Source of the DNA: Gammaproteobacteria bacterium | GTDB taxonomy: Bacteria; Pseudomonadota; Gammaproteobacteria; Steroidobacterales; Steroidobacteraceae | Length of the DNA stretch: 64,000 nucleotides | Assembly: GCA_018970145.1 (NCBI GenBank) | Contig: JAGWWY010000002.1 | Location: 62,001 to 126,000, forward strand | Reading direction: 5' to 3' | In this document: positions 1-18,208 of the stretch, piece by piece | Layout of the letters: each line of letters starts with the position of its first letter | Numbering within the stretch: position 1 is the stretch's first letter | Position numbers and translations under genes: made by a program | Notes under the pieces: model-generated | Seen by the model: only the letters and a program-made list of their open reading frames with translations | The model's database searches: none | Told to the model about the DNA's origin: nothing

Positions 1-246
1 GCCTTGAACGTTCGGGATAACGCCGAACAGATCTTTGTTGTTGGCGATGCCAAGCTCCGCAATGGTCTTGGCGCTCAATGCCGTGATAGCAATTGGCGTG
101 GTCTGCAAATTCTCGGCGCGCTTCTGCGCCGTGACGACGATCTCCTCTAGACCGCCTTGATCGGCGTCCTGCGCCCCCGCTGTTGCGGCTGCGACTGCAG
201 CGATCAAGCCCGTCACGATCGACGGCACTGAGTGATTCCTCTTCAT
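1..246 (-). CDS. TonB-dependent receptor, N-terminal part (cut by window edge)
   Basis: Eighty-two N-terminal residues are visible and the gene runs off the left edge. A signal peptide (MKRNHSV start, hydrophobic stretch rich in Ala, AGA-Q cleavage region near residue 25) is followed by a TonB-box-like segment LEEIVVTAQKR (about 33-43) and the start of a plug domain. This is the standard beginning of outer-membrane TonB-dependent receptors that import large, poorly permeable substrates using the proton motive force. A GGAGGA ribosome site lies 9 nt before the ATG. The gene diverges from an MFS transporter and shares a promoter region with it that carries a candidate operator. By context it probably imports a steroid or related hydrophobic substrate, but the ligand is inferred. 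Confidence 0.85.
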   Translation of the reverse strand, partial: MKRNHSVPSIVTGLIAAVAAATAGAQDADQGGLEEIVVTAQKRAENLQTTPIAITALSAKTIAELGIANNKDLFGVIPNVQG

Positions 247-344: not shown

Positions 345-374
345 TGCGTAATCCATGTCAATAAAAATTACGCA
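345..374. promoter_or_regulatory. Candidate steroid-regulon operator, site 1
   Basis: A 30-bp inverted repeat: TGCGTAA at 345-351 and TTACGCA at 368-374, separated by 16 bases. It sits in the 246-bp gap between the TonB receptor and the MFS gene. The same arms with the same 16-base spacing recur at 5837 and 18179, also in divergent gaps. Read leftward, a perfect -35 hexamer TTGACA (361 to 356) lies inside the repeat, with a weak -10 AAGCAT 17 bases on, so binding here would compete with RNA polymerase on the receptor promoter. I saw nothing else definite in the gap. Confidence 0.7.
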
Positions 375-492
375 AAGTGACGTTATCTCGATCCGAGGAC
401 TGCTAATATCGCAGCGGAGTGGTTCTTTTGCCACGAATCCGCCCGATAGAGCGGAGTGCTGCAGGTTCAGACCGGAGCGGCGAGGAGGGGGC

Positions 493-1824
493 ATGACATC
501 GGAGACGGGGGATCCAGGCGAGAGCGTCGCCGAAACGGCCGTCAGCAGGCGTCCGGGCGGCTACGCTTGGTACGTTGCCGTCGTGCTGTTCTTCGTTTAC
601 CTCGTCAACTACGTCGACCGTTCCGTCCTTAATGTGCTCTCGCAACTGGTGAAGGACGATCTCGGCGCATCCGATACCGTGATGGGTTTTCTGGTCGGGC
701 CCGCGTTTGCTGTGTTTTATGCACTCGCTGGTATCCCGATTGCGCGTTATGCCGATCGATCCAATCGAATCCGCATCATTGCGATCGGTTGTTTGGTTTG
801 GAGCGGCTTTACGGTGGCGACGGCCTATGCGCAAACGTGGCAGCAGTTGGCGTGGTTCCGTATCGGGGTTGGCATTGGCGAGGCCGCTTTTCTGGCACCT
901 GCGTACTCCATCCTCGCCGATTATTTCCCGGTTCGCTATCGGACTCGGGCGCTGTCGCTATTGGGGTTGGCTGTCTATTTTGGGCAGGTGACCGGTATGG
1001 TGACCGGCGCGATGCTCGGCGCCTCGCTCGGTTGGCGTGATGTGTTCATTTACGCGGGGCTCCCGGGTATCGCGGTGGCGATGATCGCGTGGCTGACGGT
1101 ACGAGAGCCGGTGCGCGGCGCGCAGGACTCGATCGAGAGAGCAACCGAAGGGCTCCGCCTCGACCTGTGGGGGGCGATCCGACAACTATGGGCGTATCGG
1201 AGTTTTCGCAAACTTTGCTTTGGAACCGCACTGGGCGTGTTTGGTGGTCAGGCGTTCGCCGGTTGGTCCGCACCGTTTCTGATGCGTTCGCACGGCGTTG
1301 ATCTTGTCGCCATCGGGACCGTATTCGCACCGCCATATCTGTTGTCGGCACTCATCGGCACCGTCCTGGCAGGTTTTGTCGCCGATCGCCTCGTTCGGCG
1401 TAATCTCAATGTGCCGGTTAAAGCGTCGAGCTATGCGCTCGGTCTAGCGACCGCGATCCTGTGCATGGCCTGCTGGGTCCCGAGTTTCACATGGCTCGTA
1501 ATTTTGACGATTCCGATGGGGTTGGTCGGGGGCGGTTGGGTGTTGCCGATGCAGTCGAGTACTCAAAACGCACTGCCGCCGGAGTTGCGTGCGACGGGAA
1601 TCGCCGTCTTTTGGTTTGTCGTCAATTTGGTCGGTATCGCTGGTGGCCCCTGGTTCACGGGCTTCGCTTCGGATCTTCTGGCAGTCCGGTTCGGCAACGA
1701 CTCTCTGCGTTACGCCTTGTTGCTCGCCGTTTCGGTGAGCTTCATCGGAGCGGCCATCATTCGATCGGCGGGAAGGCAACTGCATGCAGAGGCCCTGTCG
1801 ATGGGTATTCAGCACCGGGGTTGA
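493..1824 (+). CDS. MFS transporter, spinster-like
   Basis: A 443-aa major facilitator superfamily permease of the inner membrane with about 12 hydrophobic segments. The N-terminal half carries the VDRSVLNVL helix, the loop GIPIARYADRSNR (the MFS signature between TM2 and TM3) and an APAYSILADYFP segment typical of spinster-type bacterial carriers found in aromatic and steroid gene clusters. The ATG at 493 is chosen because a GAGGAGGGGG ribosome site lies just upstream; the frame stays open back to 355, but that part lacks transporter character. The stop is 2 bases before the next gene, an acyl-CoA ligase, so they form one operon. Its cargo is probably a steroid or side-chain acid, inferred from neighbours only. 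Confidence 0.88.
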   Translation: MTSETGDPGESVAETAVSRRPGGYAWYVAVVLFFVYLVNYVDRSVLNVLSQLVKDDLGASDTVMGFLVGPAFAVFYALAGIPIARYADRSNRIRIIAIGCLVWSGFTVATAYAQTWQQLAWFRIGVGIGEAAFLAPAYSILADYFPVRYRTRALSLLGLAVYFGQVTGMVTGAMLGASLGWRDVFIYAGLPGIAVAMIAWLTVREPVRGAQDSIERATEGLRLDLWGAIRQLWAYRSFRKLCFGTALGVFGGQAFAGWSAPFLMRSHGVDLVAIGTVFAPPYLLSALIGTVLAGFVADRLVRRNLNVPVKASSYALGLATAILCMACWVPSFTWLVILTIPMGLVGGGWVLPMQSSTQNALPPELRATGIAVFWFVVNLVGIAGGPWFTGFASDLLAVRFGNDSLRYALLLAVSVSFIGAAIIRSAGRQLHAEALSMGIQHRG

Positions 1825-1826
1825 AC

Positions 1827-3455: not shown

Positions 3456-3480
3456 GTTTTCGAATCGAGCTTGCGGTCGA

Positions 3481-4554
3481 TTAAGAGACGCGCGCGAGTG
3501 GCCAGCCGGGTGTGCCCGGCACTACGTGCACACCCTCAATCGGTGCGATCAAGCGTTTTGCTTCGCTGCGCGGATGGTAGAACTGCTTGTACCAAATCCG
3601 GGCTTTGTGAAATGGACCGTCGGTCGGGATCTGCAGGATATTAAAAGCGGGCCGTTTGTTGCCCCAGACTTCGAAGTCTTGCAGAAACGCGAGACGACTG
3701 GATTCATTGAAGCCACGAGCCGCGTCGAAATCGGCCTCTGTCGGCACGGCGTTCGCACCCTTAATGAGAAGGCCGTGCCAGACCTCGATGACGCCATCGT
3801 CGACTGGCGTGTGCGTGATCATCAAGACGGTCTCGAACAAGCCCGTCAGATGGGAGACCAAAATACCGGGACCATGATAGACGGTATCGGTGTAGAGCTT
3901 GTCACCCGGTCCCGCCACGAGGGTGCGGTGTCCGCCGGCTTGGCGCTGAATCGCTTTGTGTCCACGGAATTCGTTCTCAAAATATTCCACCGTCGAGCCG
4001 TGAATCGGACCCAAGTGTGGCAGATCAGCGATGTTGTCGATGATCTCCTGCGGATGGCATGCCATCACGCCGAGCTTGTCGATGTTCCAGGGCACCCAGT
4101 TCGGCTGACCGTACTCGGTGAGAGGCGGCAGGTCGAAGTCTGGCTCACCCTCTTCCGGGTCGAACCACACGAAAACCACACCGGCGTGTTCTCGTACCGG
4201 CCAACTTTTGACGCTGGCGGCTTTGGGAATGTTGCCGTCGTAGTAAGGGATGTGATTACACTTGCCATCTGGGCCGAATCGCCAAGCATGGTACGGGCAG
4301 CGGATGTCGTCGCCCTCGACGTGACCGTCGCGCGCCGTGTAAGACGATTTGTTCTTCGCCAAGTGCGTGCCCATGTGTGGGCAGTAGGCATCGAGCAGGA
4401 CGACCCGACCGCTCTTGCCGCGATACAGCGCAAAGTCACGACCGAAGTAACGGACGCCTTGCGGCTGATCTGTCACCTCGCTCGAGATGGCGACCATGAA
4501 CCAGCCGCGCGGGAAAGTCTGAGGACCGATTTTGTAGTCCGCGGTGGTTGCCAT
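3481..4554 (-). CDS. Rieske non-haem iron oxygenase, KshA-like
   Basis: A 357-aa oxygenase component. The Rieske [2Fe-2S] ligands are Cys58-x-His60 and Cys86-x2-His89, followed by FGPDGKC. A mononuclear-iron motif with Asp177, His180 and His185 (IADLPHLGPIH) lies in the catalytic domain. KshA is the oxygenase of 3-ketosteroid 9-alpha-hydroxylase, which with KstD opens ring B; the related DAF-36/Neverland enzymes act at C7. The gene follows hsaA by 4 bases in the same minus-strand operon, supporting KshA, but a different steroid position is possible. No reductase partner (KshB) is present in the window. The start ATGGCAACC at 4554 gives a normal N-terminus; an open frame further upstream only overlaps hsaA. 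Confidence 0.8.
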   Translation of the reverse strand: MATTADYKIGPQTFPRGWFMVAISSEVTDQPQGVRYFGRDFALYRGKSGRVVLLDAYCPHMGTHLAKNKSSYTARDGHVEGDDIRCPYHAWRFGPDGKCNHIPYYDGNIPKAASVKSWPVREHAGVVFVWFDPEEGEPDFDLPPLTEYGQPNWVPWNIDKLGVMACHPQEIIDNIADLPHLGPIHGSTVEYFENEFRGHKAIQRQAGGHRTLVAGPGDKLYTDTVYHGPGILVSHLTGLFETVLMITHTPVDDGVIEVWHGLLIKGANAVPTEADFDAARGFNESSRLAFLQDFEVWGNKRPAFNILQIPTDGPFHKARIWYKQFYHPRSEAKRLIAPIEGVHVVPGTPGWPLARVS

Positions 4555-4558
4555 GGCG

Positions 4559-5764: not shown

Positions 5765-5836
5765 GGATGGTTCCCTCGGTTAGGCGTTAAGACCCAAATC
5801 CGATGCTAGCTTGGGCGCGCGGCGTCTGCAAGCAAC

Positions 5837-5866
5837 TGCGTAAAATACATAGGTGTTTTTTACGCG
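5837..5866. promoter_or_regulatory. Candidate steroid-regulon operator, site 2
   Basis: TGCGTAA at 5837-5843 and TTACGCG at 5860-5866 with a 16-base spacer, in the 234-bp gap between hsaA and hsaD. It is the most symmetrical of the three sites: the pairing extends to GCGTAAAA/TTTTACGC and includes inner ACA/TGT steps, 11 of 14 pairs in the 28-bp core. A rightward -10-like TAAAAT (5841-5846) overlaps the left arm, so a bound protein could repress. The rest of the gap shows no other clear element. Confidence 0.72.
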
Positions 5867-5998
5867 TTTCGATTGTTCCCGGGGTGCTCGGGCAACCAAA
5901 AGCGCCGTCAGGTGCCTCTAACTTTACGAAGCAGGTTTGCCGAAGCCGACGAAAGCCACTATCTTTCGTCGCTCTGCAACCAGCCACGGGGGGAGGGT

Positions 5999-6856
5999 AT
6001 GGCAAGTCAACAAGAGCCGCTCAAGACGGCCACCGGCGGACCACCGAGAGCGCGAGCGATCCCACTTCCGAGCGGCTACGAGCTGCATTTCCACGATACC
6101 GGACCCTCGCCAGGCGGTAGCACCGTAGTGTTGCTTCAAGGAAGCGGACCCGGCGCGAACGGTTGGAGCAACTTTCGTCACAACATCGAGCCGTTGCGAG
6201 CGGCAGGGCATCGCGTCATCGTCCCGGATTTGATCGGTTTCGGTTATTCCTCGAAGCCGACCGGGCTCGACTACACCTTGGATTTGTTCGTCGAGACCAC
6301 ACTGGAGCTGCTCGATGCGTTGGGGGTGCGGCAGTGCGTACTCGTCGGTAATTCCTTGGGTGGGGCCGTCTCGATTGGTATCGGTCTGGCGAGGCCGGGC
6401 TTCGCCCAGAAACTCATCGTCATGGGTTGCGGGGGCATCGAGTCGACCGAAACCTATTTCAAGATGCCCGGGATTCAAAAAATGGTCTCCGGTTTTGTCG
6501 GTGGCGAAATCAACCCGACGTGGTTGCGTGGCATCTTACAGATGCTGTCGTTCGATCCGATCCACGTCACCGACGAATTGGTTGCGGAGCGGTTTGCCAT
6601 TCTGCAGTTGATGCCGAAAGAGGTGCTCGGCCGGATGCGTATTCCAGATTTGACGCCGCGCCTCACGGAGTTGTCGATGCCCGTGCTCGGTTTTTGGGGT
6701 GTCGAGGATCAGTTTTGTCCGGCCTCGGGCGCCCTGAAAATCACGAGCCAGTGTCGTGACAGTCGCGTCATCCTGTATTCGCGGGTGGGCCATTGGGTGA
6801 TGATCGAAAGGGCGCAGGAGTTCAACCGACATGTCATCGACTTCATCGCCGCCTGA
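5999..6856 (+). CDS. hsaD: HsaD-like meta-cleavage product hydrolase (alpha/beta hydrolase)
   Basis: A 285-aa alpha/beta hydrolase. The nucleophile elbow GNSLGG is at 117-122 (Ser119), with Asp237 in WGVEDQF and His265 in VGHW completing the triad. The oxyanion segment QGSGPGANGWSNF (47-59) is that of C-C bond hydrolases (MhpC/BphD/HsaD). HsaD cleaves the ring-opened product DSHA to a C5 dienoate and HIP. It is the first gene of a five-gene plus-strand operon, downstream of operator site 2. The ATG at 5999 follows a G-rich ribosome site; an upstream open frame to 5873 lacks family similarity. The partner dioxygenase HsaC is not in the window. MhpC-like activity on simple aromatics is the main alternative. 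Confidence 0.87.
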   Translation: MASQQEPLKTATGGPPRARAIPLPSGYELHFHDTGPSPGGSTVVLLQGSGPGANGWSNFRHNIEPLRAAGHRVIVPDLIGFGYSSKPTGLDYTLDLFVETTLELLDALGVRQCVLVGNSLGGAVSIGIGLARPGFAQKLIVMGCGGIESTETYFKMPGIQKMVSGFVGGEINPTWLRGILQMLSFDPIHVTDELVAERFAILQLMPKEVLGRMRIPDLTPRLTELSMPVLGFWGVEDQFCPASGALKITSQCRDSRVILYSRVGHWVMIERAQEFNRHVIDFIAA

Positions 6857-7649
6857 CGCGGTTTCGCGCGCGGCGCTCATCGATTCGGTGGCGCAAACAC
6901 TGCATAAGGCGTGGCGGCAGCGCCTCACGATAGCGCCGCTGCGAGAGCAGCATCCGTGGCTGACGCTGGATGATGCCTACGCGATTTCTTTGGGATTCCT
7001 GCAGCGACGCACTCAGGCGGGTGAGCGCGTGGTTGGCAAGAAGATCGGTGTGACGAGCAAAGCCGTCCAGGACATGCTTGGGGTGCATCAGCCCGACTTC
7101 GGATTTCTCACCGACGCCATGCAAGTACCGAACGGCGGCAACATCGAGATTGGGCAGCGGATGATTCAGCCGCGCGCAGAGGCCGAGATCGCACTGATCT
7201 TGCGATCGAGTTTGCACGGGCCCGGAATCACCGAGCAGGACGTATTGAACGCGACCGACAGCATTGCAGCCTGTTTTGAGATCGTCGACTCGCGTATCGA
7301 TTCTTGGAATATCCGCATCGTCGATACCGTCGCCGACAATGCATCCTGTGGTCTCTTCGTGTTAGGAAATGAGCGCGTATCACCGCGAGGTCTCGATCTC
7401 GCTGCGATGGAAGTACGCGTCAAGAAAAACGGCCGTCACCTGTCGCGTGGGGTCGGTGCGGCGGTGCAGGGATCGCCGCTTGCGGCGGTCGCGTGGCTCG
7501 CCAATACCCTCGGCGCATACGGCGTCACGCTCGATGCCGGCGACATCATCCTGTCTGGTTCTCTCGTGCCACTTGAGTCGGCGGCGCCCGGCGACGTCTT
7601 CGAGCTGGATCTCGATCACGTCGGTTCGGCGATCGTGACGTTTTCTTGA
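6831..7649 (+). CDS. hsaE: 2-hydroxypenta/hexadienoate hydratase (HsaE/MhpD family)
   Basis: A 272-aa member of the 2-keto-4-pentenoate hydratase family, which adds water to the dienoate released by the meta-cleavage hydrolase. Diagnostic segments are GKKIGVTSKAVQDMLGV near residue 65, IQPRAEAEIALIL with the metal-binding Glu residues near 105, and a C-terminal AGDIILSGSLVP. The start lies 26 bases inside the end of hsaD, so translation is probably coupled. In steroid degradation HsaE acts on the C6 dienoate from HsaD, followed by HsaG/HsaF, which are not in this window. The sequence cannot separate HsaE from MhpD by itself; the neighbours decide. Confidence 0.86.
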   Translation: MSSTSSPPDAVSRAALIDSVAQTLHKAWRQRLTIAPLREQHPWLTLDDAYAISLGFLQRRTQAGERVVGKKIGVTSKAVQDMLGVHQPDFGFLTDAMQVPNGGNIEIGQRMIQPRAEAEIALILRSSLHGPGITEQDVLNATDSIAACFEIVDSRIDSWNIRIVDTVADNASCGLFVLGNERVSPRGLDLAAMEVRVKKNGRHLSRGVGAAVQGSPLAAVAWLANTLGAYGVTLDAGDIILSGSLVPLESAAPGDVFELDLDHVGSAIVTFS

Positions 7650-7661
7650 GGAGTTGATCCC

Positions 7662-9380
7662 TTGGAACCTAATGCTTTGCCTGACGTGATGACGGATGTG
7701 CTCGTGGTCGGTAGTGGTGCGAGTGGGCTCACTGCCGCGCTGACCGCTGCAGACCAGGGCGCGAAGGTACTCATCATCGAGCGCGGTCATCTATTCGGCG
7801 GGACGTCGGCCACATCGGGTGGGACGATCTGGATTCCGAACAACCATTTGATCGGCCCGGCCGGTGGTCGAGACACGCCGTCCGAGGCGGAAGAGTACAT
7901 CCGGGCGTTAGCCGGAGAATTCTCTTCGATCGAGCGTATCAAAGCTTTCGTGGAGCAGGCACCGCGCATGTTCCGCTATCTCGATGAGAAAACCGACGTC
8001 AAGTTCGAAAGCCTTGAAAAGTACTGCGACTATCATCCGGAGTTGCCTGGCGGTAAGCCGGGGTTTCGCAGCTGTCAGGCGCTGCCCATCCAGTGCGATG
8101 TCTTAGGTGGCGAATTCGATTCCTTGCAGCCACCGCATGTTGGTACGACTGCCTTTGGTCGCATCAATTGGACGGCGCGTGAGGCCCATCCGTTGATCAC
8201 GCAGTCCAAGGGCGCCAAGCAGATTTTTTTGAGAATCGCCGCGAAGTATTACCTCGACGTGAAACAGCGCTGGAAAACGCATCGCGATCGGCGATTGACG
8301 GGTGGTGGTGCATTGGTTGCCCGATTGCGCTGGTCGCTGCGCAAGCGCAAGGTGCCTTTGCAACTCTCGACCGAGTTGGTCGATCTGTGTATCGAGAGTG
8401 GACGAGTGGTCGGTGCGAAGGTGCTAAACAACGGTCTGCCGCAAATCATCCGCGCGAGTCGCGGAGTGATTCTTGCCGCCGGTGGCTTCGAGCGCAATGC
8501 GCAGATGCGTGCGACGCATCTTCCAAGTCCAACCACGACAGCGTGGTCGGCCGGCAATCCCTTCAACACCGGGCTCGCCACGGAGGCGGCCATCCGTATC
8601 GGGGCGCAGACGGCGAACATGGACTCGGCGTGGTGGGCGCCCGGTTACAAACTCGCCGATGAAGATCGCGCGCGACCCATGTTCGTCGAACGTTCGTTGC
8701 CGGGTTCGATCATGGTCGACGGGGCAGGTCGACGGTTTTGCAACGAGGCTGCGTCATATCACGTGACGGGTGGCTTGATGGCGCGCGGTCACCGACCTGC
8801 CGATGGTGGCACAGTCCCGAGTTGGTTCATCTTCGATGCGCGCTACCGCGGCAAATATGCGCTTGGACCCATCTTCCCTGGGCCGCCGAGTTTCGATCGC
8901 AGCATTCGACCGAGCATGCGGGCCATCCTGCGCTCGGCTAGCACGATCGAAGAATTGGCGGATGCGATCGGTGTGCCGCGTACGAATCTCGCAGCTACCG
9001 TGAGCTCGTTCAACCAGCATGCAGAGCATGGCCGGGATCCAGATTTCGGTCGCGGCGACAGTCTTTACGATCGCTATTACGGCGACCCGGCTGTTCAGCC
9101 GAACTGTTGTCTCGCGCCGTTACGCAAGGCACCGTTCTATGCCATTCCGATCCAACCGTGCGATATCGGTACCAACGGCGGCATGCTGACCGATGAACAA
9201 GCACGTGTGATTGACGGAGCGGGTGCGCCGATCGAGGGACTTTACGCCGTCGGTAATTGTGCTGCCTCCCCGATGGGTAAGAGTTACCCGGCAGCGGGTG
9301 CGACTTTGGGGCCCGGCATGACGTTCGGTTATCTGGCAGCGCTGCATGCGGTGAACGGGACTGTCGACATCGCGCGATGA
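7662..9380 (+). CDS. kstD: 3-ketosteroid delta1-dehydrogenase (KstD-like flavoprotein)
   Basis: A 572-aa FAD-dependent oxidoreductase of the KstD/fumarate-reductase flavoprotein superfamily. The dinucleotide-binding motif GSGASG is at 18-23. A DYHPELPGG segment near residue 125 matches the region holding an active-site Tyr in KstDs, and KSYPAAGATLGPG near the C-terminus places Tyr542 and Gly546 like the Tyr/Gly pair of the characterised Rhodococcus enzyme. KstD introduces the C1-C2 double bond in ring A; with 9-alpha-hydroxylation this opens ring B. The chosen start is a TTG preceded by GAGGAG at 8 nt. The stop overlaps the P450 start by ATGA. A 5-alpha-steroid delta4-dehydrogenase is the main alternative. 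Confidence 0.85.
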   Translation: MEPNALPDVMTDVLVVGSGASGLTAALTAADQGAKVLIIERGHLFGGTSATSGGTIWIPNNHLIGPAGGRDTPSEAEEYIRALAGEFSSIERIKAFVEQAPRMFRYLDEKTDVKFESLEKYCDYHPELPGGKPGFRSCQALPIQCDVLGGEFDSLQPPHVGTTAFGRINWTAREAHPLITQSKGAKQIFLRIAAKYYLDVKQRWKTHRDRRLTGGGALVARLRWSLRKRKVPLQLSTELVDLCIESGRVVGAKVLNNGLPQIIRASRGVILAAGGFERNAQMRATHLPSPTTTAWSAGNPFNTGLATEAAIRIGAQTANMDSAWWAPGYKLADEDRARPMFVERSLPGSIMVDGAGRRFCNEAASYHVTGGLMARGHRPADGGTVPSWFIFDARYRGKYALGPIFPGPPSFDRSIRPSMRAILRSASTIEELADAIGVPRTNLAATVSSFNQHAEHGRDPDFGRGDSLYDRYYGDPAVQPNCCLAPLRKAPFYAIPIQPCDIGTNGGMLTDEQARVIDGAGAPIEGLYAVGNCAASPMGKSYPAAGATLGPGMTFGYLAALHAVNGTVDIAR

Positions 9381-10720
9381 GACCGCTCGAGACCGACATC
9401 ACCTCGCCGCAGTTGTACGAAGATCCGCGGCTACTCGCGCCGGTGTTCGCCGACTTGCGCGAACGCCATCCCATCGCCTGGGTCGACCGTGAGCCGTACC
9501 GGCCCTTTTGGGCGATCACGCGTCACACGGACATCGTCGCGATCGAGCGGCAGCATCGTTTGTTCATCAACGAGCCGCGACTGTGTCTGATACCGAAAGA
9601 AATCGAAGCACAGTCGGCCTCCGCTATGGCGGGCGGTGTTCGCGAGACCTGCAAAGTGCTGATGTCTCTGGCGCGATTATCGCAGCGCCCGCTGGGTGAT
9701 TTGCTCGACTGGCTGCAGGCGCGCGAAGAGAATCGTCGGCGGGGTCGTCGCGAGCGTGTCCGAACGCTGATCGATATGGATGAGCCTGAGCATCGCGCGT
9801 TCCGCGAGCTCACCCAAAGTTGGTTCATGGGCGCCGGCGTGCGGCGACTCGAGGGGCAGGTCACTGCGATGGTCGAGCGATCGATCGCCCGGATGCGTGA
9901 GTGTGGATCCGAGATCGATTTCGCCAAAGACGTGGCCGTTTGGTTTCCGCTGTCGGTGATCATGTCGATTCTTGATTTGCCGGAGAGTGACGCGCCGTTC
10001 ATTTTGCGAACGACGCAGCAGTTGCTGAGTGCAAGTGACCCGGAATTGCGTAAATCCGAGGCCTACGGCGTCGACGTCGTCGGAGAATTATTTGCCTATT
10101 ACGAAGACATCGTGCGGCATCGTCGTCGCAATCCTGGCGACGATTTAACAAGCCTCATCGCCAACGCCCGCATCGATGGCCGACCGCTCGGACCGGTGGA
10201 AACACTCTCGTACCTGCTGATCGTCACAACCGCAGGGCACGAGACGACGAGCGCCGCATTGGCTGGCGGTATGCAGGCGCTCACCGAGAATCCGGATGAG
10301 CGTCGTCGAGTAGAGCCTGGCGTAGAGTCGACCAAATTGTTGGCCGATGAAATCGTTCGTTGGGTCACGCCGGTACGTCATTTTTGTCGTACCGCTACCG
10401 AGGATACCGAGCTCAGCGGCGTCAAGATTGCCGCAGGCGAGTCCGTAACCTTGTTCTTCAATTCGGCGAATCGCGATTCGCAGGTCTTCGATCAGGCTGA
10501 GCGTTTCATCGTGGATCGACGCCCGAATCCCCATCTGAGTTTTGGTCACGGTGTGCATCATTGCCTCGGGCGCGTACTCGCGCTGACGGAAATCCGCGCA
10601 TTCTTTTCGACCTTGTTACCGATGCTGTCGGACGCGTCGATCGCAGGTCCCGTCAAAGGAATCGAGAGTAATTTCACCGGCGGATTGAAGAGCCTTCCCA
10701 TGCACCTGGTGTGGCGATGA
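9377..10720 (+). CDS. Cytochrome P450
   Basis: A 447-aa soluble bacterial P450. The I-helix oxygen-activation motif AGHETT is near residue 286, the K-helix E-x-x-R is in DEIVRW, and the haem loop FGHGVHHCLG gives the thiolate ligand Cys396. Such enzymes hydroxylate unactivated carbons using electrons from a ferredoxin or reductase; none is encoded nearby. The gene sits fourth in the hsaD operon, overlapping kstD and the next gene by ATGA at both ends, which argues for a steroid substrate. CYP125/142-type side-chain oxidation or ring hydroxylation are both possible; the sequence does not decide. Confidence 0.88.
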   Translation: MRPLETDITSPQLYEDPRLLAPVFADLRERHPIAWVDREPYRPFWAITRHTDIVAIERQHRLFINEPRLCLIPKEIEAQSASAMAGGVRETCKVLMSLARLSQRPLGDLLDWLQAREENRRRGRRERVRTLIDMDEPEHRAFRELTQSWFMGAGVRRLEGQVTAMVERSIARMRECGSEIDFAKDVAVWFPLSVIMSILDLPESDAPFILRTTQQLLSASDPELRKSEAYGVDVVGELFAYYEDIVRHRRRNPGDDLTSLIANARIDGRPLGPVETLSYLLIVTTAGHETTSAALAGGMQALTENPDERRRVEPGVESTKLLADEIVRWVTPVRHFCRTATEDTELSGVKIAAGESVTLFFNSANRDSQVFDQAERFIVDRRPNPHLSFGHGVHHCLGRVLALTEIRAFFSTLLPMLSDASIAGPVKGIESNFTGGLKSLPMHLVWR

Positions 10721-12150
10721 CGATCAACGAGGTGATGATGCAAGTGCGCGAGGCCTGGCGGTCGCTCGCCGGCGGATGTCTGCTGTGGGGGCTGATCTTC
10801 GCGGTGGCGGTGACACCCTTGACCGCGGCGACCCCAACGGAGGAGTTGGAGGAGGCGCAGGCCTTCCACATTGGCACGATCGCTTATCTGTACGGATTCC
10901 CCGCGGTCGACATGACGCAGGCGATGTTCAATGAAACCCACGCTGTCAGTTCCGAGCAGCGAGTGCTTTCGCCGGTGAATCAGTTCTTTCGATTCCGTGA
11001 ACGAGTTACGCCGAAGAGTGCCGGTTCGTTGCGTGCTCCGAACGCGGATACGCTGTACTTGAGCGGATGGTTCGATCTGCAGTCGGAACCAGTTGTTATC
11101 CGCGCTCCTGACACCCGAGGTCGCTACTACACACTCGCCGTCACAGACTTCAACTCGGAAGTACAGCATGTCGGTCGACGGACGACCGGTACCGATGCGC
11201 GCGATTTCGTATTGGTAGGCCCGACATTCGAGGGCGATTTGCCGAACGGGTTGCATGTCGTTCGTGTGCCCACTCAGCGTGCTTGGGTGCTCGGGCGCGT
11301 CATGGTGGGCGGCGAAGATGATCTCGAGTCGGCTCGTCAGATCCTTGAAGGCTTCACGACGATCGGCTTATCCGACTGGAAACGCGGTCTTGCAGCCACT
11401 GCGTATTCGCCGCCAGAGGCCGCCAAAGCCGTTCGCCTAGTCGATTCCTTGCCGTTTTACGAGACGCTTAACCTGTGGCTGCGCACGAATCCGCAGCGTT
11501 CGGAGGAGTCGGCGTTGCTTGCGCAGTTCGATGCTGCGGGCTTTGGACCTGCGCAGCGTTTCTCGGCAGAGCAGGCGAGCGCGGCAACCCGTCGAGGTCT
11601 GACGCGAGCGATCGAGTCGGGCCGTCAAATGTTGGTGACCGCTTCGCGTCGTCCGTTGTCCGATATTCGACGTGGTTGGATCTTTCCGCTCGCGCTTGGT
11701 CGATACGGTTACGACTATCTGATGCGGGCGACGGTCGCCTTCAGCGGCTATGCGAATCTGCCCGAAGAAACCGTGTACGGCGCGCTGACGAGTCAGGGTA
11801 GTGGTGTCGAACTGAATGGTGCGCGACGGTACCTATTGCGCTTCGCGCCAGATGGTGCGCCCCCGGTCGGCGCCTTTTGGTCGATCAGTGCCTATCGAAG
11901 TCGTGATTATTCTTTGATCGAGAACCCGCTCGGCCGCTACAGCATCGGTCCGCATGTATCCGGATTCAAGACCAAAGCGGATGGTTCGTTCGCGATTGTC
12001 GTATCGCGCGAGGCGCCCGCTGACGATAGCGTCAACTGGTTGCCCATCGACGAGGACCCGTTCTATCTGATCATGCGGATGTATGAGCCCGCACGCGCCA
12101 TACTCGATGGTCGCTACCAACCGCCTGCCATCGAAGTACTCGAGCCCTGA
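10717..12150 (+). CDS. DUF1254/DUF1214-family exported protein
   Basis: A 477-aa protein whose body matches the DUF1254 plus DUF1214 architecture: a YLYGFPAVDM helix start, the PNADTLYLSGWFDLQSEPVV segment and a C-terminal FWSISAYRSRDYSLIENPLGRYSIG block. An N-terminal hydrophobic stretch (GGCLLWGLIFAVAVTPLTA) indicates export or membrane anchoring. The ATG at 10717 overlaps the P450 stop as ATGA and is preferred over a GTG 6 bases upstream. The biochemical role of this family is unknown to me; members recur in gene clusters for hydrophobic substrates. It ends exactly where the convergent SDR gene ends, without a spacer base. Confidence 0.8.
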   Translation: MTINEVMMQVREAWRSLAGGCLLWGLIFAVAVTPLTAATPTEELEEAQAFHIGTIAYLYGFPAVDMTQAMFNETHAVSSEQRVLSPVNQFFRFRERVTPKSAGSLRAPNADTLYLSGWFDLQSEPVVIRAPDTRGRYYTLAVTDFNSEVQHVGRRTTGTDARDFVLVGPTFEGDLPNGLHVVRVPTQRAWVLGRVMVGGEDDLESARQILEGFTTIGLSDWKRGLAATAYSPPEAAKAVRLVDSLPFYETLNLWLRTNPQRSEESALLAQFDAAGFGPAQRFSAEQASAATRRGLTRAIESGRQMLVTASRRPLSDIRRGWIFPLALGRYGYDYLMRATVAFSGYANLPEETVYGALTSQGSGVELNGARRYLLRFAPDGAPPVGAFWSISAYRSRDYSLIENPLGRYSIGPHVSGFKTKADGSFAIVVSREAPADDSVNWLPIDEDPFYLIMRMYEPARAILDGRYQPPAIEVLEP

Positions 12151-12903
12151 TCAGCAGGTCGAGGATCCGCCGTTGAGCGGAATGGTTTGTCCGGTCATCC
12201 ACGAGGCCTCACGCGAAGCGAGATAGGCAACGGCTGCACCGACGTCCTCAGGGGAGCCGGCGCGTCCGACTGCGGTCACCCGTTTGGCGATTTCGTCATA
12301 GCCGTAGTTGTTCATGGCGCCGAGCGAGAGAACATTGACCGTCACGCCATCGGGGCCGACCTCTTTGCACAGGTTGCGCATGAAGCCGATGGTTGCGGCT
12401 TTCGCTGCCGCGTAGTCTGAGAGTCCCATGCTTTGACCGAGTCGCCATGACTCCGATGAGATGGTGACGATACGGCCAAATCGGGCGGCCTGCATCGCGG
12501 GCAGCACGGCTCGGCACAAATGAACGACCGCGTGGAAGTTCAGGGCCAGTTGTCGATCAAAGTCGATGCTGCCGAGTTTGTCGAAGGTGCGAAGCGAAGT
12601 AGACATGCCGACCGGCACGCCCGCGTTGTTGATCAGTGTGTCGATGTTTCCGTAATGCGATCGCGCCAAGTCGCACAGACTCTCGGCCGTGGTCGCTAGG
12701 GTGATATCGCCCGGCGCAGCCACCGCTTCATAGCCATTGGCGCGTAAGGCGCTAGCCGCTGATTCGGCTCGTTCAGCGTAAAAGTCATTGACGAGAACTC
12801 GCGCACCGAGTGAGGCGAGCGTTTTGGCGATGCCAAGTCCCATCCCTTGTCCCGCGCCGGTCACGAGGGCGACGCGGTCCGTGTACTCGAATAAACGTGT
12901 CAT
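12151..12903 (-). CDS. Short-chain dehydrogenase/reductase
   Basis: A 250-aa classical SDR with the cofactor motif TGAGQGMGLG at 15-24, NNAG in the centre, and the catalytic Ser/Tyr/Lys set in TISSESW...YAAAK (Ser150, Tyr164, Lys168). An Asp at the end of beta-strand 2 (VNDF) suggests NAD(H) preference. The ATG at 12903 is chosen because GAGGAG lies 7 nt upstream; an in-frame TTG further up would bury that ribosome site. It is last in the operon that starts with the FadD3-like ligase. A hydroxysteroid or beta-hydroxyacyl-CoA dehydrogenase role is inferred from context; substrate unknown. Confidence 0.85.
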   Translation of the reverse strand: MTRLFEYTDRVALVTGAGQGMGLGIAKTLASLGARVLVNDFYAERAESAASALRANGYEAVAAPGDITLATTAESLCDLARSHYGNIDTLINNAGVPVGMSTSLRTFDKLGSIDFDRQLALNFHAVVHLCRAVLPAMQAARFGRIVTISSESWRLGQSMGLSDYAAAKAATIGFMRNLCKEVGPDGVTVNVLSLGAMNNYGYDEIAKRVTAVGRAGSPEDVGAAVAYLASREASWMTGQTIPLNGGSSTC

Positions 12904-12914
12904 AACGGATCTCC

Positions 12915-13688
12915 TCAATTGAGATCGGCAACCAGCGGCACCGACGGGTCACTCGTGTCGACGGTTGTACCGCGCTGCCGGATCGCGATCGACATCTGCG
13001 GCTCGCTATAACTGTGGCAAGCGTCGCGCATCATGGTGTGGTGGGCTACTGGCTTATCGGCGCCTGCCTCGACATCCCAAGCACGGGCACGACTCACGAA
13101 ATAGCCCTTGTGTAGGACGAGTGCCGCCTCGAGTTCGTCGCCCTCGAAGCGACTCGTCGCCCAGCGTGAGAAGCCGCGCAGCAACGGCTTGTCCGCCAAC
13201 TCCATAGGTTCGAGAATGCGAGCCTCGAAAGTGCGCCAGCGAAACATCGTTTCGCCATCACGCTGCAGCGTTGTCCATACCGGCCCAGGATGCTCATCTG
13301 GCACGGTGACATCGTAGGTGCGTGTGCCGCCTCGACGCGCATGCGCCATCGCGAGTACGGCAAGATCAAATAAATGCGTACAGTGGGACCGCGGGCTCTC
13401 GCGCGTAGCCAGTTCCCGCCAGCTGCTATCGAGCGATGTGCCGATCAGTCGTCGCAACGGCAGGGCAGCGGAGGGGCAGGTGGTCAGCGGTACACGATGG
13501 AACTGCGGCAGCAGTTCGACGATCCGCTCGCCATCGTGGCGCAGTGTCATGCGGAACGAGTGATAGGCATCCTCGACGCCGGCACGAACCTCGTTACCCT
13601 CGGCGATTAAGCGGATTCGACGTCGAAGCGCTCCCTGACCGAAGTCGGGGTTGTGTCGCTCGAAGCCTTTGGGCCCGGCCTCATCCAT
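12915..13688 (-). CDS. DUF2889-family protein
   Basis: A 257-aa protein matching the DUF2889 family: EDAYHSFRMTLRHDGERI in the first third, then the conserved block with Cys and His residues ending PRSHCTHLFDLAVLAM. The conserved Cys/His pairs look like a metal or catalytic site, but no reaction is known to me. The ATG at 13688 overlaps the MFS stop by 8 bases, which is typical of coupled translation; the longer open frame upstream is only the antisense part of the MFS gene. Its position between a transporter and an SDR suggests a role in steroid or acyl-CoA metabolism, which is an inference. Confidence 0.75.
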   Translation of the reverse strand: MDEAGPKGFERHNPDFGQGALRRRIRLIAEGNEVRAGVEDAYHSFRMTLRHDGERIVELLPQFHRVPLTTCPSAALPLRRLIGTSLDSSWRELATRESPRSHCTHLFDLAVLAMAHARRGGTRTYDVTVPDEHPGPVWTTLQRDGETMFRWRTFEARILEPMELADKPLLRGFSRWATSRFEGDELEAALVLHKGYFVSRARAWDVEAGADKPVAHHTMMRDACHSYSEPQMSIAIRQRGTTVDTSDPSVPLVADLN

Positions 13689-14823
13689 GCGCGGGGCGAC
13701 GAGCGACGTTCCAGAACGCGATCGTCGGGATGGCTGCACAAGCGACGGCAAGTACGAACAGTGGAGTGAAGCCGCCGGCTTCGGCCAGGCGTCCTGCGAG
13801 TTCGGGGCCAATGAATGCGCTGACGGCGAAAGCGGCCGGGACGAGCACGACGAGACGATTACTCTGATCGAGTTTGGCGATTGCCGCCGTTTGATAGACG
13901 CAACCGATGGTGAAGGCTCCTTCCCAGATCCATGCGCCGAAAGCGTAGATCCAGAAATTGACCGGGTTGGCGAGCATCAATACGCCAAGCGTCAAAAACA
14001 ACAAAACGAGCACGTGAGGCCAGCGGTTGCCGAGTCGATCACCGAGCAGTGCGACTAGCGCGGCGCTTAGTCCGCCGACCACTTTCAGAGCAGCGAATAC
14101 GAGACCCATGTCGCTCGCGCCAACTTCGATGCTGCGTCCGATTCGTTCGATGAAGACCCAGAGTGCGACCTGACCGCAGGCGAACAACACGAAAATAGCC
14201 AGCGCGATCCATGCGAGACGATCGATAGCGGAGCGGTCCGCTGCAGTGTCTGTCGTTACGGTCTCGGCACCTTTGGGGATGACGAGCGCCGAGAGAGACA
14301 TCACGAGAACGGCAACCGCCAAGAGCGCAATACCACCCGCGATACCCTTAGATGCAATCAACAAGGGCAGGAAGTACAGCAAGGTGGCGACGATCACGAG
14401 TTCTGTGAGCAGGCGGACGCCGAAGGCTCTCTCTTTGTTGGCGACTTCGCCGACCATGCGCATACCAAGCGAGTGCATTAAGCCCGCTGCGAAACCGAAT
14501 ACAGCCAAGGGTAGGTAGGGCGTTGGGCCGCTCGAGCCACTCCACCACAGCGCGATCGCCGTCAGCCCTGCAGCAAGCGCGGTGGCGTAACGCCAGTGAA
14601 CTCGATCTACCCACAGCGGCCCGAGCAAGGTGCTGATGAGGTAGCCGCCGGTGCAGGCGCTGCCCAAGGTGCCAAGCTCGGCCGGGCTCAAGCCACCGGC
14701 ATCGGCGAATGCGCCAAGCAGGATCGGCAAGGTATTGAACGGTAAACCGCCGATCGACGAGGCCACACTCGCCGCTAGCAAGAAGGCCGCTCCGCCGCGG
14801 ATCCAGAGACCTGATTGAGTCAT
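13681..14823 (-). CDS. MFS transporter
   Basis: A 380-aa hydrophobic protein with about 12 membrane segments and major-facilitator character: a long first helix (AAFLLAASVASSIGGLPFN), GGYLISTLLGPLWVDRVHWRY resembling the TM2-TM3 loop, and many Gly-rich helices. The ATG at 14823 overlaps the flavoprotein stop as ATGA, with GGAGTGGG upstream. It is distinct from the MFS gene at 493 in length and sequence, so the cluster encodes two permeases, possibly for different intermediates or for efflux. Cargo unknown. Confidence 0.82.
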   Translation of the reverse strand: MTQSGLWIRGGAAFLLAASVASSIGGLPFNTLPILLGAFADAGGLSPAELGTLGSACTGGYLISTLLGPLWVDRVHWRYATALAAGLTAIALWWSGSSGPTPYLPLAVFGFAAGLMHSLGMRMVGEVANKERAFGVRLLTELVIVATLLYFLPLLIASKGIAGGIALLAVAVLVMSLSALVIPKGAETVTTDTAADRSAIDRLAWIALAIFVLFACGQVALWVFIERIGRSIEVGASDMGLVFAALKVVGGLSAALVALLGDRLGNRWPHVLVLLFLTLGVLMLANPVNFWIYAFGAWIWEGAFTIGCVYQTAAIAKLDQSNRLVVLVPAAFAVSAFIGPELAGRLAEAGGFTPLFVLAVACAAIPTIAFWNVARRPAHG

Positions 14824-16544
14824 GATGCGTTCCCACTCCAAGTGATGCCCCGGGCCGCATGCAAGCCTGCGCGCCTGCCGGAGAAGATGCCATCTGCAAT
14901 AGATAGTCCCGACACGTACAGCCCGGAACTTACGCCGACGGCATTGCGACCTGCCGCGTAGAGTCCCTCGATAGGTCGACCCTGTGCATCGGTAACGACC
15001 CCGGTGGCTTCATCGACGGTCAGACCGCCCAGCGTCAGTGTCGGGCAGGGCAGTAGTTTCGCCGCAAGTCCCACATCGATCGCCATGAAAGGACCCTCAG
15101 TCAGAGCCGCGCAATCGGCGGACGCTTTGCCGAATCGGTCTGCCTGTTGGCCTGATGCGCTGCGGTTGTAGTCGCGAACGGTGTTCATAAGTCCGTTCGG
15201 ATCCACGCCGATTTTTTTGGCAAGTGCCTCGAGGCTCGCGGCTTTACGTCGTCCCAACAACATATTCAACCGGGCGAGATCGCGCTGAAAAGCGAGAACA
15301 TGACCTGTGCCAATTTGTTCCCAGGCGCGTTTTGTCAAACGTGCATCGAGGATGAGCCATCCACGGCCCTCGTTTTTTTCCGCCAAGGCATGCCCAAGTG
15401 TAGCGCCGTACGACATTTCGTTGGCAATTCGCTCGCCGGCTGCGTTGACCACGATCCCCTCGGCCCACGCTTTGGGTGGGTTGATGAATCGCCACGCCGA
15501 CACATTGTCCATTCGAGCCGCCGCTGCGCCCACGGAGAGCCCAAGGTGAATGCCGCTGCCATCATCGCCCGGCGTTCCGAGCGGATAACCACGACGATAG
15601 CGGGGGGCATGGTGAGCGAGCATCTTGCGATTGAAGACGAAGCCGCCTGCCGCGAGACAGACGCCGCGGCGTGCGCGCACATAGCGCGGCTGGCGACACG
15701 ACGCCTCCAACTCGGCAGCTCGTTGCAGTCTTTTGATGGCGAAGCGCAACAGATATTTGGCGCCGGGCAGAATCGGTGGCACGAGTGCGTACCACCGCTC
15801 GGCGATTTTTTTGTGTTTGATAAACTCATCTCGAGCCGTGCCTTCCGGCAGTTCCAAGACCTTCACACCAACGACGCATCCGGCGCGATCGCGCAACAGC
15901 TGCCGCGCTTCCGTATATCGCTTGAAGGTGGCGCCGTGTGCGAGCAGCCAGTCGTGTAGGGGCCAAACGATCGAACCGCCGAGACCCACCGCTTTCAGCA
16001 TTTGCTCGCGGGTCAGTCGGCCCGCGCCACGATGACCTCGCGCGGCAGGCTTGGCTTTGGCGGCGTACTCCGGTAGCAAAGAATTATCCGAGTGATATAG
16101 GAAGTAGTCGATCTGCGGATACGAGGTCTTGTCGCGATAGAGCGTCGAGCGAAACTCGACGCCTTTGTCTTGCAGCCACTGCACCGTATGCCGGCTCTGC
16201 TCGCAAAAACGCATCAGGGTCTCATCGGAGACGCAGCCGCGGGTTTCCATCGACAGGTAGGCGAACATGTTTTGCGGACTGTCGTCGACGTTAGCTTCTT
16301 TTTGAATCGTGGTGCCGCCGCCTGCGTAGAGCACGCCACCACTTGCGGCAGTGGCGCCGCCGCCCTCGTAGCGATCGAGCAGCGTCACGCGCAAACCCTG
16401 CTCGAGCGCTTCAGCGGCGGCCGCAGAACCTGCCGCGCCCGAGCCGACGACGACAAGATCGGCCTCGTCATCCCAAGCGAACGAGTCCGGATCGTCGATC
16501 GTCAAAGCGGGTTCAACTTGTGAGAACCAGGGCGTCGATGTCAT
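14820..16544 (-). CDS. KstD-like FAD-dependent dehydrogenase (second copy type)
   Basis: A 574-aa flavoprotein of the same superfamily as KstD, with GSGAAG at 34-39, GGGATAASGGVLYAGGGT near 61-78 and a C-terminal SGLYVSGLSIADGIFSGRRAG block. The C-terminal block differs from the SYPAAG form of the KstD at 7662 and resembles flavoproteins annotated as 3-oxosteroid delta1- or delta4-dehydrogenases or urocanate/fumarate-reductase-like enzymes. It overlaps the ligase upstream (ATGA) and the MFS downstream (ATGA). A dehydrogenation of another ring, for example delta4 of a 5-alpha or 5-beta steroid, is plausible; the substrate is not determined. Confidence 0.78.
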   Translation of the reverse strand: MTSTPWFSQVEPALTIDDPDSFAWDDEADLVVVGSGAAGSAAAAEALEQGLRVTLLDRYEGGGATAASGGVLYAGGGTTIQKEANVDDSPQNMFAYLSMETRGCVSDETLMRFCEQSRHTVQWLQDKGVEFRSTLYRDKTSYPQIDYFLYHSDNSLLPEYAAKAKPAARGHRGAGRLTREQMLKAVGLGGSIVWPLHDWLLAHGATFKRYTEARQLLRDRAGCVVGVKVLELPEGTARDEFIKHKKIAERWYALVPPILPGAKYLLRFAIKRLQRAAELEASCRQPRYVRARRGVCLAAGGFVFNRKMLAHHAPRYRRGYPLGTPGDDGSGIHLGLSVGAAAARMDNVSAWRFINPPKAWAEGIVVNAAGERIANEMSYGATLGHALAEKNEGRGWLILDARLTKRAWEQIGTGHVLAFQRDLARLNMLLGRRKAASLEALAKKIGVDPNGLMNTVRDYNRSASGQQADRFGKASADCAALTEGPFMAIDVGLAAKLLPCPTLTLGGLTVDEATGVVTDAQGRPIEGLYAAGRNAVGVSSGLYVSGLSIADGIFSGRRAGLHAARGITWSGNAS

Positions 16545-18112
16545 GTGTCAGAGGGTCCTGTTGTCTTTGGCGTGTCACGCAACGCGAATCGCTGTACTTT
16601 GCCCGACGCGGTAGTCGGCAGTTGCGTCACTAGATGTACTTGTCTTGGAACTTTGTAATTGGCCATGTTGGCTCTGCACCAGCCTAGGAATTCGTCGAGG
16701 TCCCAGGGTCGATCGACGCGCGGCACGATGTACGCGGCGGCGACTTCGCCCATTCGTTCATCAGGAACGCCGACGACGGCGACGTGTGCGACGCCCGGAT
16801 GGGCACTGATCAAAGATTCGATTTCCGCCGGGTAACAGTTGAAGCCACCGACGATGAACATGTCCTTCTTGCGATCGGTGATCCGCAGGTAGTCGCGCCG
16901 GTCCATGGTGCCGATATCGCCCGTGTGTAGCCAGCCATCGGTATCGATGGCCGCGGCCGTGGCGAGCGGATCGTCCAAATACCCTTGCATGACGTTGTAG
17001 CCGCGAACCCAGATTTCGCCTTCTTGTCCACGAGCGACTTCCGCGCCTTGTTCATCGACGATCTTGACCTCGACCCCCGGCAGAGGGGCGCCGCAGCTGC
17101 GCGCGATCGTCTCGGGGTCGTCACCGGGGCGGCACATGCTGACCGTGCCGGTCGACTCGGTGAGTCCGTAGCCGGTGATCACGGTGCTGAATCCGAGATC
17201 CTGATGCATCCGCTCGATGAGAGCCGTCGGCACGTTGGCCGCGCCCGTGACAGCAAGTCGCAGCGACGCGGTTTGCGAGCGCTCGAGTGCCGGGTGCGCG
17301 AGCATCGACTGGAAGAGCGTCGGTGGACCCGGCAGCACCGTGATGCGATCCGCAGTGATGCGCCGGATCACCTCGCCGGCGTCGAAGACCGCCATCGGTA
17401 GGATGATCGCGCCGGTGATCAAGCAGGCAAGCCAGCCGGCCTTATAACCAAATGCGTGGAAGAACGGGTTGACGATGAGGTAGCGATCCGCGCTTTGCAA
17501 ACCGACGATCGCGCTCCATTCGGAAAAAACACGTACGTTCTGGCTGTGGGATGACATCACGCCCTTCGGTTGGCCGGTCGTTCCCGAGGTGAACATCACA
17601 TCGGCGAGATCTTCTGGGGAAACAGCGGCTAGGCGTGCTTCTAGCTCCCGCGTGCTCGTGATCGAGCCTCGATCGAGCCAGTTCGTCCACTCAGGCGAGT
17701 CGAGCTCGAGGCGTTGTTGCAACGCGGGTAGCGCTTCCGAGGCGATCAGCGCGTTGAAGTCGCTTTGTAGGAAACGGCCCGAGTGGCAGAGTGCCGTGGC
17801 GGAGCTGCGCTGCAGAATGTAGCCCGCTTCGCGGCCTTTCAGCCGAGTGTTCAGCGGGACGATCGCGGCCCCGACCGATTGCGCGCCGAGTGCGGCGATG
17901 ATCCACGGAATGCCGTTTGGCCCCCAGATGGCAACTCGGTCGCCGTGCTGAACGCCGGTGGCGATGAATGCCGCCGCGGCACGTTCCACCTCCCGCTTGA
18001 GCGCTGCGAAGGTGAGCTGTCGCGGGCCGTCCTCAATGGCAACCTTATCGGAGTACTGCGCTGCTGCCCGGTGGAGGACGCCCGGCAGGGTCTGAGCGAG
18101 GACAGACTGCAT
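16541..18112 (-). CDS. fadD3: FadD3-like acyl-CoA ligase
   Basis: A 523-aa ANL-family ligase. The adenylation loop is in MFTSGTTGQPKGVM; NPFFHAFGYKAGWLACLITG, RITVLPGPPTLFQSML and TGYGLTESTGT are strikingly like mycobacterial FadD3, which activates HIP, the C/D-ring propionate left after rings A and B are degraded. The C-terminal catalytic Lys is in TASGKVQR. The ATG at 18112 (MQSVLAQ) is chosen because upstream sequence to 18475 is intergenic and antisense; no strong ribosome site is visible (a GGGGG run 13 nt away). It heads a five-gene minus-strand operon below operator site 3. Other CoA ligases of the family are possible but less likely. Confidence 0.82.
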   Translation of the reverse strand: MQSVLAQTLPGVLHRAAAQYSDKVAIEDGPRQLTFAALKREVERAAAAFIATGVQHGDRVAIWGPNGIPWIIAALGAQSVGAAIVPLNTRLKGREAGYILQRSSATALCHSGRFLQSDFNALIASEALPALQQRLELDSPEWTNWLDRGSITSTRELEARLAAVSPEDLADVMFTSGTTGQPKGVMSSHSQNVRVFSEWSAIVGLQSADRYLIVNPFFHAFGYKAGWLACLITGAIILPMAVFDAGEVIRRITADRITVLPGPPTLFQSMLAHPALERSQTASLRLAVTGAANVPTALIERMHQDLGFSTVITGYGLTESTGTVSMCRPGDDPETIARSCGAPLPGVEVKIVDEQGAEVARGQEGEIWVRGYNVMQGYLDDPLATAAAIDTDGWLHTGDIGTMDRRDYLRITDRKKDMFIVGGFNCYPAEIESLISAHPGVAHVAVVGVPDERMGEVAAAYIVPRVDRPWDLDEFLGWCRANMANYKVPRQVHLVTQLPTTASGKVQRFALRDTPKTTGPSDT

Positions 18113-18178
18113 GATTCGTTGATGACCCCCGTCTGAAAATTCGCGACCGATGTATAAATTGGTAATAGAATGATCGTT

Positions 18179-18208
18179 CGCGTAAATAACATAGCAAATT
18201 TTTACGCA
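18179..18208. promoter_or_regulatory. Candidate steroid-regulon operator, site 3
   Basis: CGCGTAA at 18179-18185 and TTACGCA at 18202-18208 separated by 16 bases, the same geometry as sites 1 and 2; the spacer shares ACATAG at the same offset as site 2. It lies in the 102-bp gap between the fadD3 operon and the SDR operon. The right edge is only 6 bases before the SDR start codon, so for that gene the site overlaps the transcription start or the ribosome-loading region. Leftward, a TATACA hexamer at 18158-18153 could serve as -10 for fadD3. Confidence 0.7.

Follow-up and report, generated by a model that had tools for sequence, protein, structure and literature searches.

The 64,000-nucleotide stretch of a Steroidobacteraceae genome analysed here (contig JAGWWY010000002.1, positions 62,001 to 126,000; the window, below) carries steroid-degradation genes whose divergent promoters share an inverted repeat, which raises the question of what this repeat does and which protein reads it. 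From sequence, we are nearly certain that this 28-bp repeat serves as the operator for a regulon of steroid catabolism. The repeat is conserved, concentrated at steroid promoters, and linked to a tandem pair of Lrp/AsnC-type genes (AsnC1 and AsnC2) upstream of the window; this pair probably reads it. Searching for GCGTAA-N16-TTACGC, we find three exact copies in the window and none in 100 dinucleotide shuffles:

Site 1, 346..373, GCGTAATCCATGTCAATAAAAATTACGC: divergent gap between the TonB receptor and major facilitator superfamily (MFS) transporter genes; arms 12/12 invariant over six sequences.
Site 2, 5838..5865, GCGTAAAATACATAGGTGTTTTTTACGC: divergent hsaA/hsaD gap; also present in the hsaA gap of other genera and on sphingomonad plasmids.
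Site 3, 18180..18207, GCGTAAATAACATAGCAAATTTTTACGC: divergent gap between acyl-CoA (coenzyme A) ligase and short-chain dehydrogenase/reductase (SDR) genes; counterparts in G173 and G214.

A preliminary description of the window had reported three copies with a 16-base spacer, each in a divergent gap, and this is borne out; its expected count of 0.004 (64000/4^12) is also right. Site 1 is flanked by the TonB receptor (start 246, minus strand) and the MFS gene (start 493, plus), site 2 by hsaA (start 5764, minus) and hsaD (start 5999, plus), and site 3 by the ligase (start 18112, minus) and the SDR gene (likely start 18215, plus). The last start lies 7 bp from the end of site 3 and is uncertain because in G001 a stop comes directly after that start codon. 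The repeat had been given as 30 bp; the repeat itself stands, and the length was one base too wide on each side. Since the outermost pair is complementary at site 1 (T/A) and not at site 2 (T/G) or site 3 (C/A), the common repeat is 28 bp. The extra symmetry described at site 2 (11/14 pairs) is correct. The ACATAG element noted in the spacers is invariant at site 3 and missing from the orthologous site 2 of G001, G006 and G002, and we rejected it as a part of the operator.

Copies scattered through coding DNA, which would argue against an operator, are not what the genome contains. In all 2.43 Mb (23 contigs, 94.65% complete), only these three exact copies occur, and a reversed control gives none. 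Allowing up to two mismatches adds 6 matches in the window and gives 86 in the genome, against 124 for the reversed control. As the control is higher, loose matching alone carries no signal, and we rejected it for site finding. Six matches with one mismatch lie outside the steroid locus of this genome; the four examined (C2:140158 and C2:201237 were left out) all fall inside open reading frames (ORFs) of 272 to 1408 codons.

Within the genus, exact copies occur in 6 of 24 genomes, 18 copies in total and in the same gaps, so that the sites are conserved in the orthologous promoters of relatives. In the genus, HsaA reaches at least 83% identity in these same six genomes. Comparing six sequences per site, we find the arms invariant (12/12) at each window site, while 6, 7 and 14 of the 16 spacer positions are invariant at sites 1, 2 and 3, respectively. 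In the 40-bp flanks, the invariant positions (left/right) number 13/22 at site 1, 19/5 at site 2 and 33/13 at site 3. Could the repeat have arisen by chance, be a palindrome with no regulatory role, or be part of a dispersed repeat element? Site 3, where conservation in the genus covers both the full repeat (14/16 in the spacer) and the left flank (33/40), would by itself not point to an operator. Against it, the shuffles give 0/100, the flanks of the three window sites are unrelated to one another, the arms are invariant while spacer and flanks vary at sites 1 and 2, and the site recurs in another bacterial class at a per-gap chance of 0.0003-0.0067 (see below). We regard this explanation as extremely improbable, and a chance palindrome in particular was rejected on the shuffles, the confinement of the three genome copies to the locus, and the recurrence across classes.

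The locus continues upstream in C2:22001-62000 with hsaC, ipdAB, beta-oxidation genes, kshA, hsaG, hsaF and a second TonB receptor. Further sites had been suggested near hsaC, kshB and hsaFG, and we found them near a ksh gene, hsaFG and hsaC. The mismatch search gave a site with one mismatch at C2:37315 (GCGTATAAGTTGACCATCAACTTTACGC), between an SDR operon and a ligase/amidohydrolase/kshA operon, which is conserved in G006, G002, G001 and G012. A matrix trained on 16 distinct genus sites, this kshA-gap site included, scored a site upstream of hsaG at 24.2 (C2:27785, TCGTAGAAATAAACGACTATATTTACGA; conserved in G006) and one upstream of hsaC at 15.1 (C2:43394, GCGTAAAAAACACCCCCTTAAATTGACG; one clear arm only; conserved in G006, G002 and G001). 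These two sites and all sites from outside the genus stood outside the training. The first proposal, that a single class of operator serves the promoters of this locus, is supported. As a side observation, parts of the steroid locus occur a second time in G002, in diverged form and on short contigs (L022, L023 and L044, that is G002:C85, C138 and C169), and this assembly is probably a mixture of two strains.

Scanning 217 genomes of the family (25 genera), we find 26 exact copies in 14 genomes, and 21 of the 26 are located in steroid loci. Against this concentration stand five single exact copies elsewhere (G070, G169, G176, G223 and G225); four have no nearby match to a locus protein, and G223 has only weak MFS and TonB matches. 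Because the reversed control gives 58 copies in the family genomes (0 in the six site-bearing genus genomes), such single copies are read as background. A relaxed form, KCGTA-N17..19-TACGM, is present in the hsaA gap of all nine family loci examined outside the genus, with an N16 spacing except as if N15 in G214 and N17 in G069. The kshA gap carries a site in G170 and G173, the ligase/SDR gap in G173 and G214, and hsaC in G159 and G164. In 513 kb of family loci, 18 of the 21 relaxed matches lie in gaps before steroid genes, one lies inside an SDR gene and two are unassigned; four control palindromes matched to it in composition had 1, 17, 6 and 1 matches in the same 513 kb. Because the family loci were already known when the relaxed pattern was chosen, the family count is post hoc; for the sphingomonad loci, the pattern had been settled in advance.

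Which protein, then, reads the operator? The preliminary description had placed the regulator outside the window, and this is supported. It had also suggested searching for a regulator of the TetR or another family; a candidate was found, and it is an Lrp/AsnC pair, not a TetR protein. AsnC1 (C2:56899-57378) and AsnC2 (C2:57378-57854) lie in tandem 5.1 to 4.1 kb before the window, between MaoC and GMC oxidoreductase genes and in line with hsaC, to whose operon they apparently belong. Both contain the AsnC-type N-terminal helix-turn-helix (PF13404, 57.7 and 51.9 bits, cut-off 27) and the C-terminal Lrp/AsnC ligand-binding domain (PF01037, 45.3 and 40.2 bits, cut-off 25), and both align with solved Lrp/AsnC chains. 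Identity between the two is 32-34%, and within the genus they keep 89-97% (AsnC1) and 91-94% (AsnC2) identity to the copies of this genome. In the scan of steroid-locus proteins, DNA-binding domains turned up in these two alone.

The pair occurs in the steroid loci of five Steroidobacteraceae genera, this one included, and on Sphingobium and Novosphingobium plasmids. AsnC1 (E<=1e-30) accompanies HsaA (E<=1e-100) in 14 of 15 family genomes and turns up in 6 of the remaining 202, giving 20 of 217 in all. Three of these six (G012, G171 and G173) have other steroid genes and G147 has a weak match; G065 and G066 have little beyond a thiolase in the stretch examined. In G162, G159 and G164 the pair forms its own unit, divergent from hsaG-hsaF, with a matrix match in between, which in G162 is an exact copy (32.6) between AsnC1 and hsaG. 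N. aromaticivorans carries a variant site just upstream of AsnC1 (19.4, shuffle maximum 14.4). By position, the sites adjoining the pair resemble autoregulation, a habit of most Lrp-type members as described in the consulted part of PMC2995911. Separately, record CAMCBU010000011.1 (L056), titled Klebsiella pneumoniae, gives the same AsnC1 match as G006 of the window's genus, and its label looks wrong.

The association extends to another class. On Sphingobium and Novosphingobium plasmids (among the best 25 of 773 records matching AsnC1, 21 are above 48% identity, and 13 of these were examined), AsnC1 is 48-57% identical to ours, and the pair lies inside the hsa cluster of S. herbicidovorans, TomTYG73, TomTYG65, TomTYG46 and Novosphingobium P6W. 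The top match of the genus-trained matrix in each 40-kb stretch falls in the hsaC/hsaA gap of all five (e.g. GCGTAATAGCAGTTTACATAATCTACGC), and four of them score 26.9-31.1, against a largest shuffle maximum of 16.5. Sites before hsaA are also present in N. aromaticivorans, KACC 22771, PP1Y, ES2-1 and THN1. Altogether, the relaxed site occupies the hsaA gap in 9 of the 10 alphaproteobacterial plasmid loci tested, the chance per gap being 0.0003-0.0067; several of the Sphingobium loci are near-identical and thus not independent.

Examining 11 of the HsaA matches found on 39 plasmid records, we also compared loci on records without the pair. None of four such loci (B. arboris, Caballeronia SBC2, V. 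alfacsensis and N. humi) has a site in the hsaA gap, which in three of them was taken as a fixed 300 bp upstream. Absence of the pair from these records was judged from match ranking (identity is 37% after the 21st match), and the pair could lie on another replicon. N. humi has no hsa cluster around its hsaA match, V. alfacsensis has a 15.7 match inside hsaC, and Caballeronia has one 27-bp match elsewhere, unassigned. On the side, TomTYG65 (L214/L227) and S. herbicidovorans (L209/L228) each hold two near-identical hsa clusters on one megaplasmid; both clusters of TomTYG65 have the AsnC pair and the operator, and the second stretch of S. herbicidovorans ends before that point. Conjugative Sphingobium plasmids (L212, L217 and L219) carry tandem Lrp/AsnC pairs of the same kind, with no steroid genes in the stretch examined.

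Several observations weigh against an operator read by this pair. Some concern individual sites. The hsaC score of 15.1 is no better than that of a coding match elsewhere in the genome (14.9), so the hsaC site rests on its conservation. P6W scores 17.1 against a shuffle maximum of 18.1, a TomTYG64 hsaA paralogue has no site, and genus g32 has the pair with low hsaA-gap scores (9.0, 11.9, 8.8 and 2.4), only one of which exceeds its shuffle maximum. The matches adjoining the pair in G159 (16.4) and G164 (12.7) are below the shuffle maximum of 17.5 each, the adjoining sites in G162, G159 and G164 could serve hsaG alone, and in the window's own genome (G000) no site lies directly before AsnC1. Others concern the pair. 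G170, the fifteenth HsaA genome, has three sites, and the pair was not found in it. Because its kstD match runs up to the end of a 7617-bp contig, and the pair of G173 sits on that same side, we treat G170 as uninformative as a counter-example. Five sphingomonad pairs lie away from steroid genes with no site within 20 kb. The AsnC2 recognition helix keeps TEGT(V/I)R in 30 of 30 aligned sequences, these five included, so that its conservation does not mark steroid loci in particular. According to the part of PMC2995911 consulted, short and degenerate sites are the rule for Lrp. Finally, pair and site could co-occur merely because both travel with the cluster.

An alternative is that the operator is real and read by a regulator encoded elsewhere, such as a TetR protein like KstR or EdcR, with the pair as a passenger or in another role. 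Sharp-armed inverted repeats are common among TetR-type operators. The steroid regulators described in the parts of PMC8700777, PMC6678751 and PMC12882949 consulted are of TetR, LuxR, LysR or AraC types, PMC12882949 ties the two Lrp/AsnC genes found in the Chol11 cluster of Sphingobium to amino-acid metabolism, and G170 has the sites with no pair found. On the other side, the scanned locus proteins hold no other regulator domain, site and pair occur together in two classes, and known motifs fail to explain the sites. KstR binds TNNAACNNGTTNNA, and the core of the KstR2 operator is CAAGNNCTTG. The single match of the KstR motif in the window, at 21864, coincides with none of the sites, and 19 of 100 shuffles give at least one; the KstR2 motif has none, and the EdcR operator TnnCnnTACnAnTnGTAnnGnnA has none with up to one mismatch. 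We consider a regulator encoded elsewhere unlikely, and the AsnC1/AsnC2 pair remains the probable reader.

How might the pair act at these promoters? The centres of the 6-bp arms are 22 bp apart (21 and 23 in two relatives), about two helical turns, and two dimers could therefore share one face of the DNA. With Lrp-type proteins, as the consulted part of PMC2995911 describes, dimers line up along a single helix face at two or three turns. The operator centre would lie at -56 to -58 of the predicted hsaA promoters in four genus sequences and at -56 in L168, L193 and L194 (g33), at -56 of the predicted hsaC promoter, and at -86 and -88 of the predicted kshA-operon promoters (L017, L021, L185 and L201). 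In four Sphingobium hsaA promoters it would lie at -12, over TTGACA-N17-TTATAT/TTACAT, in a blocking position. All these distances come from an approximate promoter matrix with no null, and were chosen afterwards, with other predicted promoters at other distances. The spacer of site 1 also carries TTGACA on the minus strand, TGTCAA being invariant over six sequences.

Since blocking and activator-like positions are both predicted, the sign of control may differ by promoter. The preliminary description had put forward a probable repressor that responds to a steroid or its CoA ester; the predicted promoters allow both blocking and activation, and such a ligand is a conjecture. That pair and site act mainly as an activator would suit the predicted centres near -56 (hsaC, and hsaA of the genus and of g33) and near -86/-88 (kshA operon). 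It fits poorly with the centre at -12 in the four Sphingobium promoters and with the TTGACA covered by site 1, and its geometry comes from the same approximate matrix with promoters picked afterwards. We lean against it while counting it a serious possibility.

Two side observations touch these promoters. A TTTACGA element resembling a half-site lies at window 5920-5935, just before the predicted hsaD -35 region, with TACGA invariant in six sequences; possibly it is an extra half-operator. The sequence TATTACCAATT, or its complement, adjoins both site 3 (window 18155-18165) and the hsaG site (L017:5770-5782), and may be either a second shared promoter element or chance.

For the complex itself, we infer binding, oligomeric state, ligand and sign as follows. 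AsnC1 and AsnC2 would bind the 28-bp repeat as two dimers, made up of either protein alone or of the two together, on the same side of the helix. RNA polymerase would be blocked at promoters that the operator covers and might be helped at those that it precedes; an intermediate of the pathway would switch the complex. The fullest version, in which the two proteins are an obligate heteromer that senses a steroid-derived metabolite, spans two half-sites separated by two helical turns and is the common master switch for degrading the steroid rings in Sphingomonads and Steroidobacteraceae, repressing the promoters it covers and activating those near -56/-87, is tentative and rather doubtful as a whole.

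The pair is like other members of the Lrp/AsnC family (E. coli Lrp and AsnC, Pyrococcus FL11) in having both domains above the Pfam cut-offs. Members of that family typically place several dimers along one face and often regulate themselves, and in the part of PMC2995911 consulted the tabulated ligands are amino acids and the sites degenerate; here, in contrast, the repeat is sharply defined and 28 bp long, the genes form a conserved tandem pair, and the regulon is one of steroid catabolism. As with KstR and KstR2, one operator class stands at several operons of 9,10-seco steroid degradation; those actinobacterial steroid repressors belong to the TetR family, unlike the pair, and a protein scan confined to the steroid locus gave no TetR-family regulator. 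EdcR, the TetR repressor of estradiol degradation in Caenibius tardaugens, likewise uses a palindromic operator in a sphingomonad, over a -10 box (PMC8700777, in the part consulted). TesR/TeiR of Comamonas testosteroni also regulates the 9,10-seco pathway in a proteobacterium (PMC6678751, in the part consulted) and belongs to another protein family, being LuxR-type; the same locus-only scan gave no LuxR-type match. A parallel in description is the bile-salt cluster of Sphingobium sp. Chol11, with two contiguous Lrp/AsnC genes; the part of PMC12882949 consulted, compared by description only, proposes no operator and assigns them to amino-acid metabolism. In the open-access literature, we found no paper describing the operator or linking this pair to steroid control.

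The genes that these sites would serve within the window are listed below. The names HsaA, HsaD, HsaE-like hydratase and KstD are given by best match, since the NCBIfam cut-offs were not reached.

1..246, minus: 5' part of the TonB-dependent receptor, whose gene runs out of the window; continues the Pfam-matched receptor L018:17592-19928.
493..1824, plus: MFS transporter (PF07690), first gene right of site 1.
Ending at 3455: acyl-CoA ligase (PF00501), after the MFS gene.
3481-4710 (ORF), minus: KshA-like Rieske oxygenase downstream of hsaA (KshA_C, 198.5 bits).
4559-5764, minus: hsaA-like monooxygenase (HsaA model 400.1 bits, below the 450 cut-off).
5999..12150, plus: hsaD-, hsaE- and kstD-like genes, a cytochrome P450 and a DUF1254/DUF1214 gene, right of site 2.
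12151..18112, minus: SDR, DUF2889, MFS, FAD-binding and acyl-CoA ligase genes, left of site 3.
18215..23418, plus: two SDR genes, a flavin reductase (hsaB-like), an APH-fold gene, one unassigned ORF and an SDR gene, right of site 3.

The runs 5999..12150, 12151..18112 and 18215..23418 presumably form operons, judged for 5999..12150 by direction and spacing. Two neighbours deserve mention in their own right. An APH-fold phosphotransferase lies inside the hsaB operon (window 20442-21512), and just past the steroid genes (window 24527-27571) an ABC (ATP-binding cassette) transporter ORF of 1015 aa has a C-terminal cyclic-nucleotide-binding domain, an unusual combination.

With an operator and a candidate regulator pair common to Alpha- and Gammaproteobacteria, a single testable rule would cover many steroid degraders of the environment. 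Steroid gene clusters would become recognisable by their promoters, and the elements may serve as parts for steroid biosensors. The Lrp/AsnC family, in turn, would gain a role beyond amino-acid metabolism.

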